Of a stretch of DNA of 64,000 nt, positions 9,335 through 24,146 are shown one piece after another. The translations under genes and the position numbers were made by a program. Each line of letters opens with the position of its first letter. The first letter of the stretch is position 1. Origin of the DNA: Carettochelys insculpta (Eukaryota > Chordata > Testudines > Carettochelyidae); contig NC_134138.1 in the NCBI RefSeq assembly GCF_033958435.1, positions 31,216,598-31,280,597 of the forward strand, read 5' to 3'. A model generated the notes under the pieces. The model made no database searches. It was not told where the DNA came from and saw only the letters and a list, made by a program, of their open reading frames with translations.

Positions 9335-9809
9335 AGGAACAGCATTTAATTTCAGAAAGGGGAACTACACAAAAATAAGGGAGGCTAATTAACAGAAATT
9401 AAAAGATACAGTGCCACAAGTGAAATCCCTGTAAACTGCATGGAAACTTTTAAAAGACACCATAGAGGAGGCTCATCTTCACTGTATACACCGTATTAAA
9501 AACAAGTAAGAGAACAAAAAAGTGTCACAGTGGCTTAAAACCCAAGTTAAAAAAAAGCATTGAGAGAAAAAAGGCAGTTTAAAAAGTGAGAGTTAAAGCC
9601 TAGTGAGGAACATAGGAGCACAAACTATGTCGAAATATAAAAATATAATTAAGAAGGCCAAGAAAATTTGAAGAATAGCTAGCCAAAAAGTAATAGCAAA
9701 CTTTTTTTTAAGTGCCTCAGAAGCAGGAAGTCTTCTAAACAACCTGTGGGGTCACAAACCTGAGCCATTCTTTTTAGGTGACAAATCTGAGGAACTGTCC
9801 CAGATTGAG

Positions 9810-10392
9810 GTGTCATTAGAAATGGTTTTGGAACACACTGATAAAATAAACAGTACTAAGGCACCTCATTCAAATGGCATTCACCCAAGGGTTCTGAAAG
9901 AACTCAAATGTAAAACTGCAGAATTAGTAACTATAGTTTGTAACCTATCTTTTAAATTATCTTCTGTACCAAATTATTGGAGGATGGATAAGGTGACACA
10001 AATTTTTAAATGGGTTCTGGCAATTCACAGACTAGTCAGTCTAACTGCAGTAACAGGCAAATTGGACAAAACTATACTAAATAACAGAATTGTTAGACAC
10101 ATAGATACACATCATTTGTTGGGGGAAAAGTCAATGTGATTCCTGTAAAGGGAAATCATGCCTCACCAGTCTACTAGAATTCTTTGAGGGGGTCAACAGT
10201 CATGTGGACAAGGGAGATCCAGTGAATATAGTGTACTTGCATTTCCAGAAAGCCTTTGACAAGGTTCCTGTCCAAAGGCTCTTAAGCAAAGTAAGTTTTC
10301 ATGGGATAAGAGGAAATATCCTTTCATTGACTGATAACATGTTAAAAGATAGCAAACAAAGGGTAGGAATAAGTGGCCAGTTTTCAGAATGA
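9810..10392 (+). pseudogene. Decayed CR1 reverse transcriptase, central part
   Basis: Two open pieces (9810-10139 and 10204-10392) correspond to RT residues around [20 protein letters not shown] and [19 protein letters not shown] of the intact element. The SPGPDG motif is changed to APHSNG. Stops and frameshifts separate the pieces, so it is non-functional. Confidence 0.88.
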
Positions 10393-10587
10393 AGAGAAGT
10401 AACTAGTGGTGATCCCCAGGGGTTCCCTGGGACCAATCCTATTCAGTGTATTCATAAACGATCTGGAGAAAGGTGGCAACATTTTCAGATCAGACAAAAC
10501 TGCTCAAGATAGTTAAGTCCAAACCAGACTGTGAAGAGTTTCAGAAGGATTTCACAAAACTTAGGTGCCTAGATAAGAAAATGGCAC

Positions 10588-11115
10588 ATGAATTTTTATG
10601 TTGATAAATGCAAAGTAATGCATATTGGAAAATATAATCCCAACTATATTTACAAAAGTATGGGGACTAGACCACTCAAGACAGAGATCTTGGAATCATT
10701 GTGGAGAGTTCTCTGGAAATATCCACTCAGTGTGCAGCAGCAGTCAAAAAAGCAGAGTATTAGGAATCATTAAAAAAGGGATAGAGAGTAAGACAAACTA
10801 TATCTTATTGCCTCTGTATAAATCCATGGTACACCCACATCTTGAATATGTGTATAGATGTGGTTGCCTCATCTCAAGAAAAAAAATAGCATTGGAAAAA
10901 GTTCAGAAAATGGTAGCATAAATCATTAGCTTATGGAATGGCGGCCATATGAGGCAAGATTAATAAGACCGGGACTTTTCAGCTTGGAAAAGAAATGGCT
11001 AAGGGAGAGAAATATGCTGGAGGTCTACAAAATCTTGACTGGGGTGGAAAAAGTGAATAAAAAAGAGTTGTTTACGCACACAACACAGAATGAAATTAAT
11101 AGGGAGCAGGTTTAA
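10588..11115 (+). pseudogene. Decayed CR1 reverse transcriptase, C-terminal part
   Basis: Overlapping frames encode [43 protein letters not shown] and RPGLFSLEKKWLRE. These match the C-terminal third of CR1 ORF2 in order but shift frame several times. Confidence 0.85.
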
Positions 11116-11284
11116 AACAAACAAAACACAGAGTCAACCTGTGGAATTCCTTGCCAGAGGAAGTTGTGAAGGCTGAGACTATAAGAGGGTTCAAAAAAGG
11201 GCTATTATCCAGGATTGGCATGCATGGTGTCCCTAGCCTCTGTTTGCCAGAAGCTGGGAATGTGCAATAGGGGGTGGATCACTT

Positions 11285-11628
11285 GGGCTAGGTCTACACT
11301 TGTCCCCAACTTTGAAGAGGGCATGGTAATCAGGGTGATGGGAGATTACTAATGAAGTGTGGTGGTGAATATGCAGCACTTCATTAGGCTAATTCTCCCC
11401 CGCAGCAACTTTGAAGTGTCAAACTTCAAAGTGCCAGCATGCGTGTAGCTGCAGGCACTTTGAGTGCCTGTGCTACTTTGAAGTGCCTTTACTCCCCAAA
11501 ATTTTGCCCTGGGGGAAAATTAGCCTAACGAAGTGCTGCATACTCACTGCAGCCCTTCATTAGTAGTCTCCCATCACTCTGATTACCATGCCCCTTTCGA
11601 AGTTGGGGACAAGTGCAAACAAGCCTTT
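11285..11628. mobile_element. Inverted-repeat MITE inserted in the CR1 relic
   Basis: The left end GGTCTACACTTGTCCCCAAC and right end AAGTTGGGGACAAGTG are inverted. The inversion continues inward (GGTAATCAGGGTGATGGGAG against CTCCCATCACTCTGATTACC). It interrupts the 3' part of the CR1 relic, so it is younger than that relic. Target duplication is at most a few T-rich bases and is not certain. Confidence 0.8.
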
Positions 11629-11750
11629 GATGTTTACCTGCTCTGTTCTTTCCCTTCGGAGCACCTGGCATTAGCCACTGCTGAAAAACAGAATACGGGG
11701 CTAGATGGACCTTTATTCTGACCCAGTGTGACAGTTCTCATTTTATGCTT

Positions 11751-18064: not shown

Positions 18065-18828
18065 GCCTACTTTATAGAGGACAGGTGAGCAAGGAACAGC
18101 CTGTGGGATGGATCCAGCCCACCAAGCTGCCATATTAGGCCTGTGGACCACCCCAACAGGCCCTTCAGGCACAGAACAGCCCCATGCTGCTTTAAGTGGA
18201 TTCCTGCTCTATGTAGGTCTCTGCTCTGTACCGTGGGGTTGTGGGGACGAAGAGGCTTTGGACAATGTCCCTGTCAAATCTCTTAGCTCCCACCGACCAG
18301 TTTACAGCCAATAGGATGGACAGATTTTGCTGGTGAGGGGCAGGGGTGGCACATGAACCCCCCTCTCCTTCCAGTGTCTGGAACAGAGAGGCATATGGGG
18401 CAGGCACCAGTTTTGAGCTATTCGGGGCTGCATCAGGTAGGGAGCCTGCCTCAGGGTCCTGCAGAGGTGCTGGCTGTAAGCTGCCTATGTAAGCATCTCC
18501 CCAGCCAGAGCCAGCCTCTGACACCCCAGCCCTTTCCTCCCCACAACTCCCTGCCCCAGGTCACCACCCAGACCCTTTGTGTTCCGCCTCCCCCAGGTCA
18601 CAATTCCCACCCAGACCCGACACCTCCTCCAATACCCCTCCCCCAGGCCAGAGTTCCCTCCTGCATGCACACCTCCTCCTAGGCGCTGCAATCCACTGCC
18701 CCACATCACAACCCCATTCTTCACCCAAACTCCTTCTCAGACCCCCACCCCCAATCCTGCACTGCAGCCCCCTACCCTAAGATCCCTTCTGCACCCAACC
18801 TCCGTCCCAGGCCCCGTACCTCCTTTAC

Positions 18829-19019
18829 ATAAGAACATAAGAACATAAGAATGGCCATACTGGGTCAGACCAAAGGTCCATCAAGCCCAGCATCCCATCT
18901 GCCGACGGTGGCCAATGCCAGGTGCCCCAGAGAAGGAGAACAGAAGACAAGTGATTTATCTCCTGCCATCCATCTCCTGCCCTTGTTATGAAGGCTAGGG
19001 CACCATACTTTATCCCTGG
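18829..19019 (-). other. CR1 3' UTR and octamer tail
   Basis: Read on minus, the ORF2 stop is followed by about 190 bases ending in repeats of TTCTTATG. CR1 reverse transcriptase is known to recognise its 3' end, and the same octamer type ends the copy at 452. Confidence 0.85.
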
Positions 19020-21917
19020 CTAATAGCCATTTATGGACCTGACCTGCAAAAATTTATCAAGCTCTTTTTTAAACCCTAATAGAGTCCTGGCCTTCACAGC
19101 CTCCTCGGGCAAGGAGTTCCACAGGTTGACTGTGCGCTGTGTGAAGAAAAATTTCCTTTTATTAGTTTTGAACCTACTACCCATCAATTTCATTTGGTGT
19201 CCCCTAGTTCTTGTATTATGGGAAAAGGTAAATAATTTTTCTATATTCACTTTCTCCACACCATTCATGATTTTATATACCTCTATCATATCGCCCCTCA
19301 ATCGCCTCTTTTCCAAACTGAAAAGTCCCAGTCTCTCTAGCCTCTCCCCATATGGGACCCGGTCCAAGCCCCTAATCATCTTAGTCGCCCTTTTCTGAAC
19401 CTTTTCTAATGCCAATATATCTTTTTTGAGGTGAGGAGACCACATCTGCACGCAGTACTCGAGATGTGGGCGTACCATAGTTTTATATAGGGGAAGTATG
19501 ATATCTTTTGTCTTATTATCGATCCCTTTTTTAATAATTCCTAACATCCTATTTGCCTTACTAACTGCCGCTGCACACTGCGTGGATGTCTTCAGAGAAC
19601 TATCCACTATAACTCCAAGATCCCTTTCCTGATCTGTCGTAGCTAAATTTGACCCCATCATGTAGTACGTGTAATTTGGGTTATTTTTTCCAACATGCAT
19701 TACCTTACACTTACCCACATTAAATTTCATTTGCCATTTTGCTGCCCAATCACTCAGTTTGCTGAGATCTCCTTGTAGTTCTTCACAATCCCTTTTGCTT
19801 TTGACTGTCCTGAACAACTTGGTGTCATCTGCAAACTTTGCCACCTCACTGCTTACCTCATTTTCTAGATCATTGATGAACAAGTTGAACAGGATCGGTC
19901 CCAGGACTGAGCCCTGGGGAACACCACTAGTTACCCCCCTCCATTGTGAAAATTTACCATTTATTCCAACCCTTTGTTTTCTGTCTTTTAACCAATTTCC
20001 GATCCATGAAAGGACCTTTCCTCCTATCCCATGACCACCTAATTTACATAAAAGCCTTTGGTGTGGGACCGTGTCAAAGGCTTTCTGGAAATCTAGGTAT
20101 ATTATGTCCACTGGGTGCCCCTTGTCCGCATGTTTATTAACCCCTTCAAAGAATTCTAATAGATTAGACAGACACGACTTCCCTCTGCAGAAACCATGCT
20201 GACTTTTGCCCAACAATTCGTGCTCTTCTATGTGCCTTGCAATTTTACTCTTTACTAGTGTTTCTACTAATTTACCTGGTACTGATGTTAAACTTATCGG
20301 TCTATAATTGCCAGGATCTCCTCTAGAGCCTTTTTTAAATATTGGTGTTATATTGGCCGTCTTCCAGTCATTTGGTACCAAAGTGGATTTAAAGGATAGG
20401 TTACAAACCACTGTTAATAACTCCGCAATTTCACATTTGAGTTCTTTCAGAACCCTTGGGTGAATGCCATCTGGTCCTGGAGACTTGTTACTATTCAGCT
20501 TATCAATTAATTCCAAAACCTCCTCTAATGTCACTTCAATCTGAGTGAGTTCCTCAGATTTGTCGCCTAAAAAGGCTGGCTCAGATTTAGGAACCTCTGT
20601 AACATCTTCAGCCGTGAAGACTGAAGCAAAGAAATCATTTAATCGCTCCGCAATGGCACTGTCTTCCTTGATCGCTCCTTTTATATCTTTATCATCCAAG
20701 GGCCCCACTGCTTTTTTAGCAGGCTTCCTGCTTCTAATGTATTTAAAAAACATTTTACTATTGTTTTTTGAATTTTTGGCTAGCTGTTCCTCAAACTCTT
20801 TTTTGGCTTTTCTTACTACATTATGACAGTTAATTTGGGAGTGTTTATGTTCCTTTCTATTTTCCTCACTAGGATTTGACTTCCACTTTTTAAAAGCTGC
20901 CCTTTTCTCTCTCACTGCCTTTTTAACATGGCTGTTTAGCCATGGTGGTTCTTTGTTAGGTCTCTTACTGTGTTTTTTTATTTGGGGTATACATTTAAGT
21001 TGGGCCTCTAGTATGGTGTCTTTAAACAGTTTCCATGCAGCTTCCAGGGATTTTAGTTTAATTACTCTACCTTTTAGTTTCTGTTTAACTAGCTTCCTCA
21101 TTTTAGTGTAATTCCCCTTTTTGAAATTAAATGCCAGAGTGTTTGACCGCTGCGGTGTTCTTCCCAACACAGGAATATTAAAAGTTATTATATTGTGGTC
21201 ACTATTTCCAAGCGGTCCAGTAACAGTTACCTCTTGGACCAGATCCTGCGTTCCAGTTAAGACTAGATCGAGAACCGACTCTCCCCTTGTGGGTTCCTGT
21301 ACTAGCTGCTCCAAGAAGCAGTCATTTAAGGCATCAAGAAATTTAATCTCTGAATCCCGTCCTGAGGTGACATGCACCCAATCAATATGGGGATAATTGA
21401 AATCTCCTATTATTACTGTGTTTTTTATTTTGATAGCCTCTCTAATCTCCCTCAACATTTCAGCATCACTATCACTGTCCTGGTTAGGTGGTCGGTAATA
21501 TATTCCTAATGCCATATTCATATTAGAGAAATGAATTGTTATCCATAATGATTCTATGGAACATTTTGATTCCTTTAGGATTTTTACTTCATTTGATTCT
21601 ATATTATCCTTCACATATAGTACCACTCCGCCACCCGCACGACCTGTTCTGTCTTTCCGATATAATTTATATCCCGGTATGATAGTGTCCCACTGATTGT
21701 CCTCATTCCACCATGTTTCTGAGATGCCTATTATGTCAACTTCCTCCTTTGATATGAGGTACTCCAGTTCACCCATCTTATTAGACAGACTCCTAGCATT
21801 AGTGTAAAAGCATGTTAGAAAACTACCACTATTTATATGTCCGCCTTTCACAGACACGGTGGATTTTTTTATGCATGATTGTTTTACATCTGATCTTGCC
21901 CATATATTATTTCCCAC
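19020..21917 (-). CDS. CR1 ORF2 protein: AP-like endonuclease plus reverse transcriptase
   Basis: This enzyme nicks target DNA and copies CR1 RNA into the genome. Numbering the 965 residues from the GTG at 21917, the endonuclease occupies about 1-245, with TNARSLSNK (39-47), ISETWW (65-70), [10 protein letters not shown] (171-180) and SDH (239-241). The reverse transcriptase occupies about 470-800, with SPGPDG (479-484), NYRPISLT (537-544), [12 protein letters not shown] (604-615), [10 protein letters not shown] (665-674) and the catalytic FADD box (695-698). There is no stop or frameshift. The start is odd: the first ATG is at residue 48, inside the endonuclease, and 21917 is GTG. The frame stays open upstream to 22055, overlapping the end of ORF1 in the -1 frame. 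Translation by -1 frameshifting from ORF1 fits better than independent initiation. Length is normal for CR1. Confidence 0.95.
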
Positions 21918-22031
21918 GTTCCCTATCTGACTAACTTCTAGGGAATCCCTGTCTATGGAGCCTCGTGTAAGAGAAGTCTCCGTCCGATCCAGGTGCTCCC
22001 CCGCACCAATCGGCTTTCCCCCACCTCTTAG
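21918..22031 (-). other. Open -1-frame linker joining ORF1 to ORF2
   Basis: After the slippery site, the ORF2 frame runs CTA AGA GGT GGG GGA and so on for 38 sense codons to the GTG at 21917, with no stop and no ATG. A frameshifted product would have 307 ORF1 residues plus about 1003 more, around 1310 in total. The nearest upstream stop in this frame is at 22056-22058. Confidence 0.85.
21984..22013 (-). promoter_or_regulatory. Predicted two-stem RNA hairpin downstream of the slippery site
   Basis: In the CR1 RNA, CCGAU (22013-22009) pairs with AUCGG (21988-21984), and GGUGC (22007-22003) pairs with GCACC (21996-21992) around a GGGGGA loop. The spacer from the heptamer is 17 bases, longer than the usual 5-9. 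An alternative stem, AGGUG (22026-22022) with CACCU (21995-21991), starts after a 4-base spacer. Runs of GG and GGGGG also allow a G-quadruplex. Any of these could stall the ribosome. Confidence 0.6.
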
Positions 22032-22951
22032 TTTAAAAACTGCTCTATGTCCTTTTTAATGTTTAATGCCAGCAGTCTGGATCCACCTTGATTTAGGTGG
22101 AGCCCATCCTTCCTGTATAGGCTCCCCCTACCCCAAAAGTGTCCCCAGTTCCTAATAAATCTAAACCCCTCTTCCCTACACCATCGTCTCATCCACGCAT
22201 TGAGACTCTGAAGTTCTGCCTGTCTATCTGGCCCTGCGCGTGGAACTGGAAGCATTTCAGAGAATGCCACCAAAGATGTTCTGGATTTCAGTCTCTTTCC
22301 TAGTAACCTAAATTTGGCCTCCAGAACATCTCTTCTACCCTTCCCTATGTCATTGGTACCAACATGTACCACGACGACCGGCTCCTCCCCAGCACTGCCC
22401 ATAAGTCTGTCTAGATGCCTCGAGAGATCCGCAACCTTCGCACCAGGCAGGCAAGTCACCATACGGTTCTCCCGGTCATCACAAACCCAACTATCTATAT
22501 TTCTAATGATCGAATCCCCCACTACTAAAACCTGCTTCTTCCTAACAGCTGGCGCTCCCTCCCCCGGAGAAGTATCCTCGGCACGAGAGGATACAACATC
22601 ACCCTCTGGAAGGAGGGTCCCAACTACGGGATGGTTTCCCTCTGCTCCCCTTGACTGCTCTCCTTCCCTGAGCCTTTCATCCTCCGTAACAGCCTCAGGA
22701 CTGTCAGATTGGAGGTGGGACAGCCCTACTATGTCCCGGAAAGTCTCATCCACAAACACCTCTGCCTTCCTTAGCTCCTCCAGTTCAGCCACCCTGGCCT
22801 CCAAAGCACGCACTCGGTCTCTGAGGGCCAGGAGCTCCTTGCATCGAGCGCACACATACGCCACCCGCCCACAGGGTAGGTAGTCATACATACTGCACTC
22901 GACACAATAAACAGGATAGCCCCCACTCTGCTGCTGGGCTTCTGCCTCCAT
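22028..22951 (-). CDS. CR1 ORF1 protein: Cys-rich N-terminus, coiled coil and SGNH esterase
   Basis: A 307-residue intact ORF1. The N-terminus has paired cysteines (C16-x2-C19, C27, C34-x2-C37), which could bind zinc. A heptad-like stretch at about 40-62 ([20 protein letters not shown]) predicts a coiled coil for oligomerisation. The C-terminal half is an SGNH/GDSL-type esterase, as known for CR1-like ORF1 proteins. It shows GDS with nucleophile S147, GTND (198-201) and DGLH with D282 and H285. ORF1 proteins are thought to package the RNA; the esterase role is unsettled. The ATG at 22949-22951 lies in a good context (A at -3, G at +4). It ends EQFLN with the stop directly after a frameshift heptamer. 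Confidence 0.95.
22031..22037 (-). promoter_or_regulatory. Predicted -1 ribosomal frameshift site (UUUAAAC)
   Basis: The last ORF1 codons are CAG TTT TTA AAC followed by the stop TAA (22028-22030). This places U UUA AAC in the zero frame, an exact X XXY YYZ slippery heptamer. Slipping back one base enters the open ORF2 frame. The adjacent stop codon and downstream structure are typical companions of such sites. Confidence 0.75.
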
Positions 22952-23475
22952 TTCCTACTCTAGTTATATATGAGGGTTAATTAAATGTTTCAGATAGAGG
23001 TTGTTATAAAGGATTTAGTTTAAGGGCAACAGAAGTCACTGGCTCCCTCCAAGCTCCCCCTCTAAACGCCCCTCTCCAAACTCCCTCCTGTTAGCACACA
23101 CCCTGTTTGCCAGCACCCGGTCGCAAAGCTCCCTGGTCGCTTACTAGCAGGGTTTAAGTGCTCGGCCTCCCTGATAGCTCCTCCCTCTGCCTACAGCTCA
23201 GCCAATCAGCACACGGTGTTTCAATTCAAACCTAATCAGCTTCCAACTGCCTGCCTGCCTGCCTGAGCACACGGCCTTTCAAACAAACAAACACACACAC
23301 TCAGCTCAGCACTCCAAACAAACAAACTCCAAACAAACACACAAGCCCAAAACCTCCAAATATAAGCAGCCACTTACCCCAAGGTGCTTTAGTTTGCTCC
23401 TTCCTTCTCCTCCTCCAGGAGAGCCTCTCCAAACTCCCTCCTGTTAGCACACACCCGGTTTGCCAGCACCCGGTC
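22952..23475 (-). promoter_or_regulatory. CR1 5' UTR and internal promoter with tandem units
   Basis: A 52-base block (CCTCTCCAAACTCCCTCCTG ... CAGCACCCGGTC on plus) occurs at 23071-23122 and again at 23424-23475, exactly 353 bases apart with one or two changes. The 5' region is thus built of at least one full 353-base unit and one truncated unit. An inverted CCAAT box lies at 23202-23206 and a TATA-like ATATAAG at about 23360. Short CCTG and AAAC repeats lie near 23240-23340. Confidence 0.75.
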
Positions 23476-24005: not shown

Positions 24006-24146
24006 GGGTAACCATGTTAGTCTGTATCTCCAAAAACAACAAGGAGTCCTATGGCACCTTATAGACTAACAGATATTTTACTGTATTTTTACAATATTTT
24101 AAAATATCTGTTAGTCTATAAGGTGCCACAGGACTTCTTGTTGTTA
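24006..24146. repeat. Fold-back insertion with ~45-base inverted arms
   Basis: The left arm, 24036-24081, and right arm, 24100-24145, are reverse complements (AACAACAAGGAGTCCTATGG against CCACAGGACTTCTTGTTGTT), separated by about 19 AT-rich bases. The left arm has an extra outward segment, GGTAACCATGTTAGTCTGTATC. This is the end (GATACAGACTAACATGGTTACC) of a common reptile retroelement 3' sequence. The architecture equals that of the larger fold-back at 40686-41216. Confidence 0.75.

Follow-up and report, generated by a model that had tools for sequence, protein, structure and literature searches.

Several described systems bear on how a retroelement can express a reverse transcriptase (RT) encoded behind another reading frame. 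In the -1 ribosomal frameshifting of viruses and LTR retroelements, the polymerase lies in the -1 frame, the upstream protein is the default product, and the shift can occur on an in-phase U UUA AAC, a heptamer that a passage of PMC5009743 lists with the sites on which mammalian ribosomes shift most readily. Among non-LTR elements, SART1 handles its ORF1/ORF2 junction at the ORF1 stop, through UAAUG termination-reinitiation (in a section of PMC5972666). Mammalian L1 is a LINE with unconventional ORF2 translation (in passages of PMC5009743 and PMC5972666), and HeT-A, another non-LTR element, is said to need a frameshift (in a passage of PMC5009743).

The CR1-type LINE described here lies in the window, that is, the whole stretch of 64,000 nucleotides of Carettochelys insculpta DNA that was analyzed. 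It shares with the viral and LTR systems the in-phase heptamer, the -1 frame of the polymerase, and an upstream protein that would be the default product. Unlike them, it is a LINE, a stop codon abuts the heptamer in nearly all ORF1s examined, and no conserved downstream stem-loop was found. Whereas SART1 uses UAAUG, the window junction reads UAAG without AUG, and the part that CR1 has kept lies upstream of the stop. In L1 a spacer separates the ORFs and ORF2 has an AUG of its own, whereas in this CR1 the frames join and two (sub)families lack that AUG. The HeT-A frameshift concerns Gag alone, in an element without its own reverse transcriptase.

A CR1 class with a type IV (esterase) ORF1 is described in part of PMC4120745. 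Among the matches listed in the open-licence PMC literature, by their titles and the beginnings of their abstracts, no description of frameshifting in CR1 was found, and an earlier account may stand in the founding CR1 papers or in Repbase. The excerpts available from PMC4120745, PMC3905857, PMC3880073, PMC4316615, PMC2734521, PMC1925062, PMC8665684, PMC4255032, and PMC6609765 name frameshifts, if at all, as mutations.

A CR1-type element with joined reading frames

The element occupies the minus strand (Table 1), and its CR1 label derives from an earlier note on this DNA and from homology rather than from an RT phylogeny. Its domain order is that of the type IV class, with an SGNH esterase in ORF1 and the endonuclease and RT in ORF2. 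Octamer repeats at the 3' end, a CR1 trait, are present as three TTCTTATG; the bird octamer TTCTGTGA, in two copies, was not found at the 3' end of the element.

Table 1. Coordinates of the CR1-type element and of its ORF1/ORF2 junction in the window
Feature	Position	Strand	Remark
ORF1, 307 aa, SGNH/GDSL esterase PF13472 (E 1.2e-12)	22028..22951	-	ATG at 22951
Candidate slippery heptamer T TTA AAC in zero-frame phase, in the final two sense codons of ORF1	22031..22037	-	
ORF1 stop TAA, abutting the heptamer; mostly TAG in two other turtle families	22028..22030	-	
Final upstream stop (TAA) of the -1 frame; 18-nt open -1 stretch before the heptamer	22056..22058	-	
ORF2 in the -1 frame, predicted post-slip entry at CTA (22031..22029), 1003 codons plus TAG (19022..19020)	19020..22031	-	
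Linker from heptamer to first endonuclease motif (NARS), 79 codons, without in-frame AUG	21801..22037	-	
Predicted hairpin, 17 nt past the heptamer; not found in 8 folded copies of the second family	21984..22013	-	
In-frame GTG, possible near-cognate ORF2 start in a rival model; ATG in 1/38 copies	21915..21917	-	
First in-frame ATG of ORF2, 87 codons past the heptamer, beyond the NARSLSNK endonuclease motif	21774..21776	-	
Endonuclease domain PF03372	21195..21803	-	
Reverse transcriptase PF00078	19671..20336	-	
Element 3' end, three octamers TTCTTATG	18828..18851	-	read directly

ORF1 ends CAG TTT TTA AAC TAA, and a heptamer of the X XXY YYZ form thus stands in zero-frame phase immediately before the stop, exactly as the earlier note had read it. 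The last upstream stop of the -1 frame starts 21 nt before the heptamer, and this long open frame, which encodes the downstream protein, would be entered within the overlap. The note's count of about 1003 open -1 codons through ORF2 proved exact, and its fusion of about 1310 residues matches the length predicted from the frames (307 + 1003).

How far the window copy departs from chance can be stated in several ways. TTTTTAAACTAA is present once in the window, against 0.07 expected. With the residues ...EQFLN fixed and the codon usage of ORF1 itself, 5.2% of synonymous recodings produce T TTA AAC, and 9.4% produce some X XXW WWH heptamer within the final 8 codons; TTA accounts for 4 of the 32 Leu codons of ORF1. 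The single window copy is weak evidence, being only mildly improbable, and it is the conservation across families that surpasses chance. One further in-phase X XXY YYZ occurs in ORF1 (GGGAAAC, codon 105), separated from ORF2 by a stop in the -1 frame. Two other routes to ORF2 were rejected: a 2A-type junction, as NPGP occurs neither in ORF1 nor in the -1 frame (read directly), and stop readthrough, which would remain in the zero frame, where the linker has stops.

The junction in turtle and ray DNA

The DNA comparison covered CR1 copies of three families within the window's own genome (2.18 Gb); copies inside one family share descent, and their counts are not independent. The window family is a young, prolific CR1 family. 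At least 117 loci were scored, most of those listed having an ORF1 frame of 307-308 codons with no inner stop, and at least 40 places in the genome are 100% identical over 381 nt.

This family was sampled through 8 copies chosen by identity, which differ from the window by 0.1-0.8% over 1 kb, and through 30 of the 117 scored loci, chosen by their ORF1 protein. Identity over a stretch including the heptamer was the ground for choosing the 8 copies, which therefore provide no evidence for it. TTTAAAC is in phase in 38/38 copies and the next codon is TAA in 37/38, with TAAG at the junction in the window and in copies L003-L010. In 25 of the 38, the -1 frame runs open through the whole sequence retrieved, and in the rest it stops at codon 24, 34, 81, or 228 and beyond.

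The second family (P0247-like; 30 of 120 scored loci) consists of decayed copies with the junction GCT TTA AAC TAG. The heptamer is in phase in 27/30, the exceptions being L027 and L032, in which a one-base deletion displaces an intact heptamer, and L020, which has TCTAAAC. In the third family (P0278-like; 20 of 147 scored loci), TTTAAAC is found in 19/20 copies (TTGAAAC in L072) and TAG in 19/20, and the -1 frame is open over all 102 fetched codons in 9 of the 20. Across the three families, the heptamer is mostly preceded by TTT or GCT and followed by TAA or TAG.

A ray, Hypanus sabinus, offers a view of the junction in two frames. Its protein P0227 ends ARGGGGLN-stop, and P0245, by eye a close copy of P0227 with fewer glycines just before the junction, runs ARGG-FKLDVQ into the endonuclease. 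The P0245 gene model thus presents ORF1 and ORF2 as one frame, in which FKL is the -1 reading at the junction. Assuming that the P0227 and P0245 copies share these bases, the sole DNA that fits both readings is GGTTTAAA(C/T)TAGA(C/T), and the deduced ray junction is TTTAAA(C/T)TAG. Searches for relatives with DNA elsewhere yielded none of use in viral contigs or plasmids (no match in the latter); genome contigs gave no match in one search and two MAG loci with 23-25% identity in another, and phages gave four weak matches, to the RT part.

Leu-Asn at the end of ORF1 in other species

The protein comparison comprised 212 distinct ORF1s, drawn from the best 120 of 223 and the best 120 of 190 matches (partly overlapping), all of which were examined; 179 contain the C-terminal block, as recognized by a pattern. 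Among these matches, Leu-Asn (LN) directly precedes the stop in 161 of the 179, and in 162 of the 212 overall. Since 89 of the 179 belong to one family, the proteins were clustered at 70% identity, and the representative ends in LN in 30 of 35 clusters; the other five end in SA (P0029), NY (P0231, LN plus Y), LI (P0253), IF (P0266), and LM (P0292). The 18 ORF1s without an LN end are cut or altered gene models together with real exceptions. Their ends include LLK (P0006), SLK (P0111), ALI (P0253), TIF (P0266), ILM (P0292), and TIN (P0296), of which LLK and SLK are also compatible with UUUAAAA or UUUAAAG, and in five of the 18 (P0079, P0084, P0231, P0255, and P0306) LN is present and followed by extra residues. 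LN-ending ORF1s come from sources that include turtles, lizards, a bird (Hirundo), a frog (Hyla), coelacanth, a mormyrid, eel, sturgeon, a shark (Scyliorhinus), rays, and Callorhinchus.

On a tree of 63 ORF1s of equal tail length (60 LN, 1 LK, 1 LI, and 1 IF), changes numbered 23 at position -3, one at L, and three at N, with 15-20 at each position from -9 to -4 and 0-5 at the DGLHL positions. Measured from the DGLHL block onward, the tail has 26 residues in most ORF1s and 27-39 in others, with LN staying beside the stop; this includes the P0031 and P0074 families, whose tails are longer by 13 and 6 residues. In 161 of the 162 LN-ending proteins, the position before LN holds S, A, Y, G, C, F, T, H, L, D, I, V, or N, residues that all have a T-ending codon; the exception is E in P0254. 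None of the 30 LN-ending cluster representatives has K, E, Q, M, or W before LN, versus 47% one and two places upstream.

In these proteins, LN-stop is nearly invariant across jawed vertebrates while the neighboring positions turn over. The check proposed in the earlier note, conservation of T TTA AAC and of the -1 phase beyond that of adjoining bases, came out in its favor in the DNA of three turtle families, in the LN-stop of jawed-vertebrate proteins, and in the ray deduction, and the comparison supports frameshifting in CR1 as the probable reading. U UUA AAC with its adjoining stop would be an old feature common to esterase-type CR1 elements and, supposing mainly vertical descent, would date to early jawed vertebrates.

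The linker and the possible starts of ORF2

In four (sub)families the linkers measure 79, 54, 46, and 59 codons and contain together 0 stops in the -1 frame, 16 in frame 0, and 9 in the +1 frame (0, 8, and 4, respectively, in the window). Under a first-order Markov null, the chance of such openness is 0.0135, 0.061, 0.198, and 0.097, and their product, 1.6e-5, is too strong a figure, since three of the four linkers are related. No purifying selection on the linker peptide was found: the third family shows 9 synonymous and 28 non-synonymous shared variants there, in contrast to 11 and 3 in its endonuclease, and the linkers of subfamilies A and B of the second family show no third-position excess of differences. 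The corresponding A/B comparison of the endonuclease is spoiled, since the commonest letters of B lose frame there. Being unconstrained, the linker peptide would act as a spacer that needs only to stay open. The -1 reading of the junction was absent from 95 ORF2-type proteins of other species, read upstream through the junction.

The first in-frame ATG lies at codon 87, past the first endonuclease motif, in 35 of the 38 window-family copies, and at codons 15, 40, and 18 in one copy each. The GTG site reads CGTG in 34/38 copies, which rejects a mutation private to the window copy, CATG in one, and TGTG in one; it was not located in two. In the second family, the commonest letters of subfamily B lack an in-frame AUG until codon 86 (among its 16 in-phase decayed copies, two, L019 and L029, carry one ahead of codon 46), and in subfamily A such AUGs occur at codons 24 and 28. 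The third family has them at codons 27 and 31, and the ray fusion model P0245 has a Met before the endonuclease. Two observations go beyond the earlier note: conservation extends to the placement of the stop directly after the heptamer, and the ORF2 AUG is missing in most copies of the window family and in the commonest letters of subfamily B.

The stimulatory stem-loop or pseudoknot of -1 frameshift signals lies 5-9 nt downstream. The z score of the more distant window hairpin ranges from -1.4 to -2.9 depending on length, and 8 of the 30 second-family copies, when folded, gave z from -1.3 to +1.6, no stabler than shuffles. A conserved downstream hairpin was not found between the window family and these 8 copies, and Rfam gave no match. 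A stop adjoins the heptamer in nearly all ORF1s examined. A frameshift site does not require an adjacent stop, and slow termination at this one may contribute to slippage.

Explanations for the conserved junction

These results are best explained by programmed -1 ribosomal frameshifting as the means by which this CR1-type LINE expresses ORF2, a reading that we consider quite likely from sequence comparison. The ribosome at the end of ORF1 would decode UUA and AAC, both tRNAs would shift back by one base on U UUA AAC, immediately ahead of the stop, and translation would resume at CUA in the -1 frame. The expected products are a fusion of ORF1 and ORF2, about 1310 residues long, and a larger amount of free ORF1 protein. 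The adjacent stop may aid slippage by pausing the ribosome, and the fusion would be the active enzyme, its formation presumably setting the ORF1:ORF2 ratio; the slippage itself and its frequency are what we infer. Points against frameshifting are that no conserved downstream structure was found, that the linker peptide is unconstrained, that some families have ORF2 AUGs, that 18 of 179 ORF1s end without LN, and that P0254 has E before LN.

Termination-reinitiation or internal initiation, in which ORF1 ends at its stop and ORF2 starts at a downstream AUG or near-cognate codon (GUG 21917 in the window family), is an unlikely alternative, although it accounts for several observations. In-frame AUGs precede the endonuclease in subfamily A, the third family, and the ray model, and by alignment SMGNN of the third family may match NVGNN of the window; however, no such AUG occurs until codon 87 in most window-family copies, or 86 in the commonest letters of B. 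A heptamer and stop that remain constant with an ORF2 AUG that varies are the opposite of what reinitiation predicts. The CATG found at the GTG site in one window-family copy would provide a start, but it is also the expected result of CpG decay from CGTG. A gene model of the hawksbill turtle (P0121) starts, by eye, at seemingly the same position. SART1 and L1 are reported, in a section of PMC5972666, to use coupling or reinitiation, yet an AUG at codon 3, the UAAUG position, is found in 0/38 copies, and no start codon of the ORF2 frame overlaps the ORF1 stop in them as in SART1-type coupling. Furthermore, the linker is open in the ORF2 frame from the heptamer onward, and reinitiation leaves the retention of Leu-Asn-stop unexplained.

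Retention of the C-terminal Leu-Asn for the protein, as part of its fold or as a C-terminal signal, with the heptamer following by codon choice, is considerably less probable still. The evidence from other species consists of protein letters only, and given FLN, codon choice yields T TTA AAC in about 5% of recodings; against this, TTA with AAC is used in three families though TTA is so seldom used for Leu in ORF1. The variable tail length, with LN staying at the stop, also argues against a constraint on the protein, as does the residue before LN, which is chemically free and yet almost always T-codable. The recoding figure for a single copy is not small, and family copies share the heptamer by descent, which would suit a heptamer inherited by chance and without function; this is the least probable of the explanations, since the same tree has 23 changes next door versus 1 at L and 3 at N.

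A broader proposal, to which we give slightly less than an even chance, is that a single ancient recoding module, U UUA AAC abutting a stop, is common to esterase-type CR1s, with pausing supplied by the stop codon itself rather than by an RNA pseudoknot (a termination-coupled -1 frameshift). This would be the main route to the RT, and the sole route in families without an ORF2 AUG, the RT being made as an ORF1-ORF2 fusion like retroviral gag-pol. That related elements in many vertebrates seem to keep the heptamer suggests that their RT is made by frameshifting. A true signal would give a concrete, testable answer on CR1 ORF2 expression. It would imply that the enzyme comes joined to its esterase partner, and it would provide for study a frameshift site that is poor in structure and adjacent to a stop. 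The young window family, with its many near-identical copies, is a ready test object.

Other observations

NPGP, the end of 2A-like stop-go motifs, occurs near the N terminus of other LINE ORF2 proteins (P0154, P0160, P0168, P0175, P0177, P0181, P0182, P0186, and P0188), where it is perhaps another solution to ORF2 expression. Two CR1 ORF1 proteins, P0228 and P0027, are filed under Pseudomonas aeruginosa and Tanacetum, labels that probably reflect contamination. An esterase ORF1 in a tubeworm record (P0301, Lamellibrachia satsuma) matches, by eye, the P0074 family; the family ends YLN, an end that the P0301 gene model lacks. Esterase ORF1s were confined to vertebrate groups in a 2014 survey, according to part of PMC4120745, and cnidarians and sponges are named for them in a passage of PMC3905857.

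Upstream of ORF1, the window contains two 69-nt direct repeats with 88% similarity (23054-23122 and 23407-23475, spaced by 353 nt), which may be a repeated block of the 5' UTR or promoter. A 53-nt inverted repeat (24035-24087 and 24093-24145), 91% complementary with 5 nt between its arms, lies beyond the CR1 5' part. Other CR1 pieces occur in the window at 456-1351 and 9342-11744, comprising a 99.4% identical 3' fragment and an older copy (71-74%).
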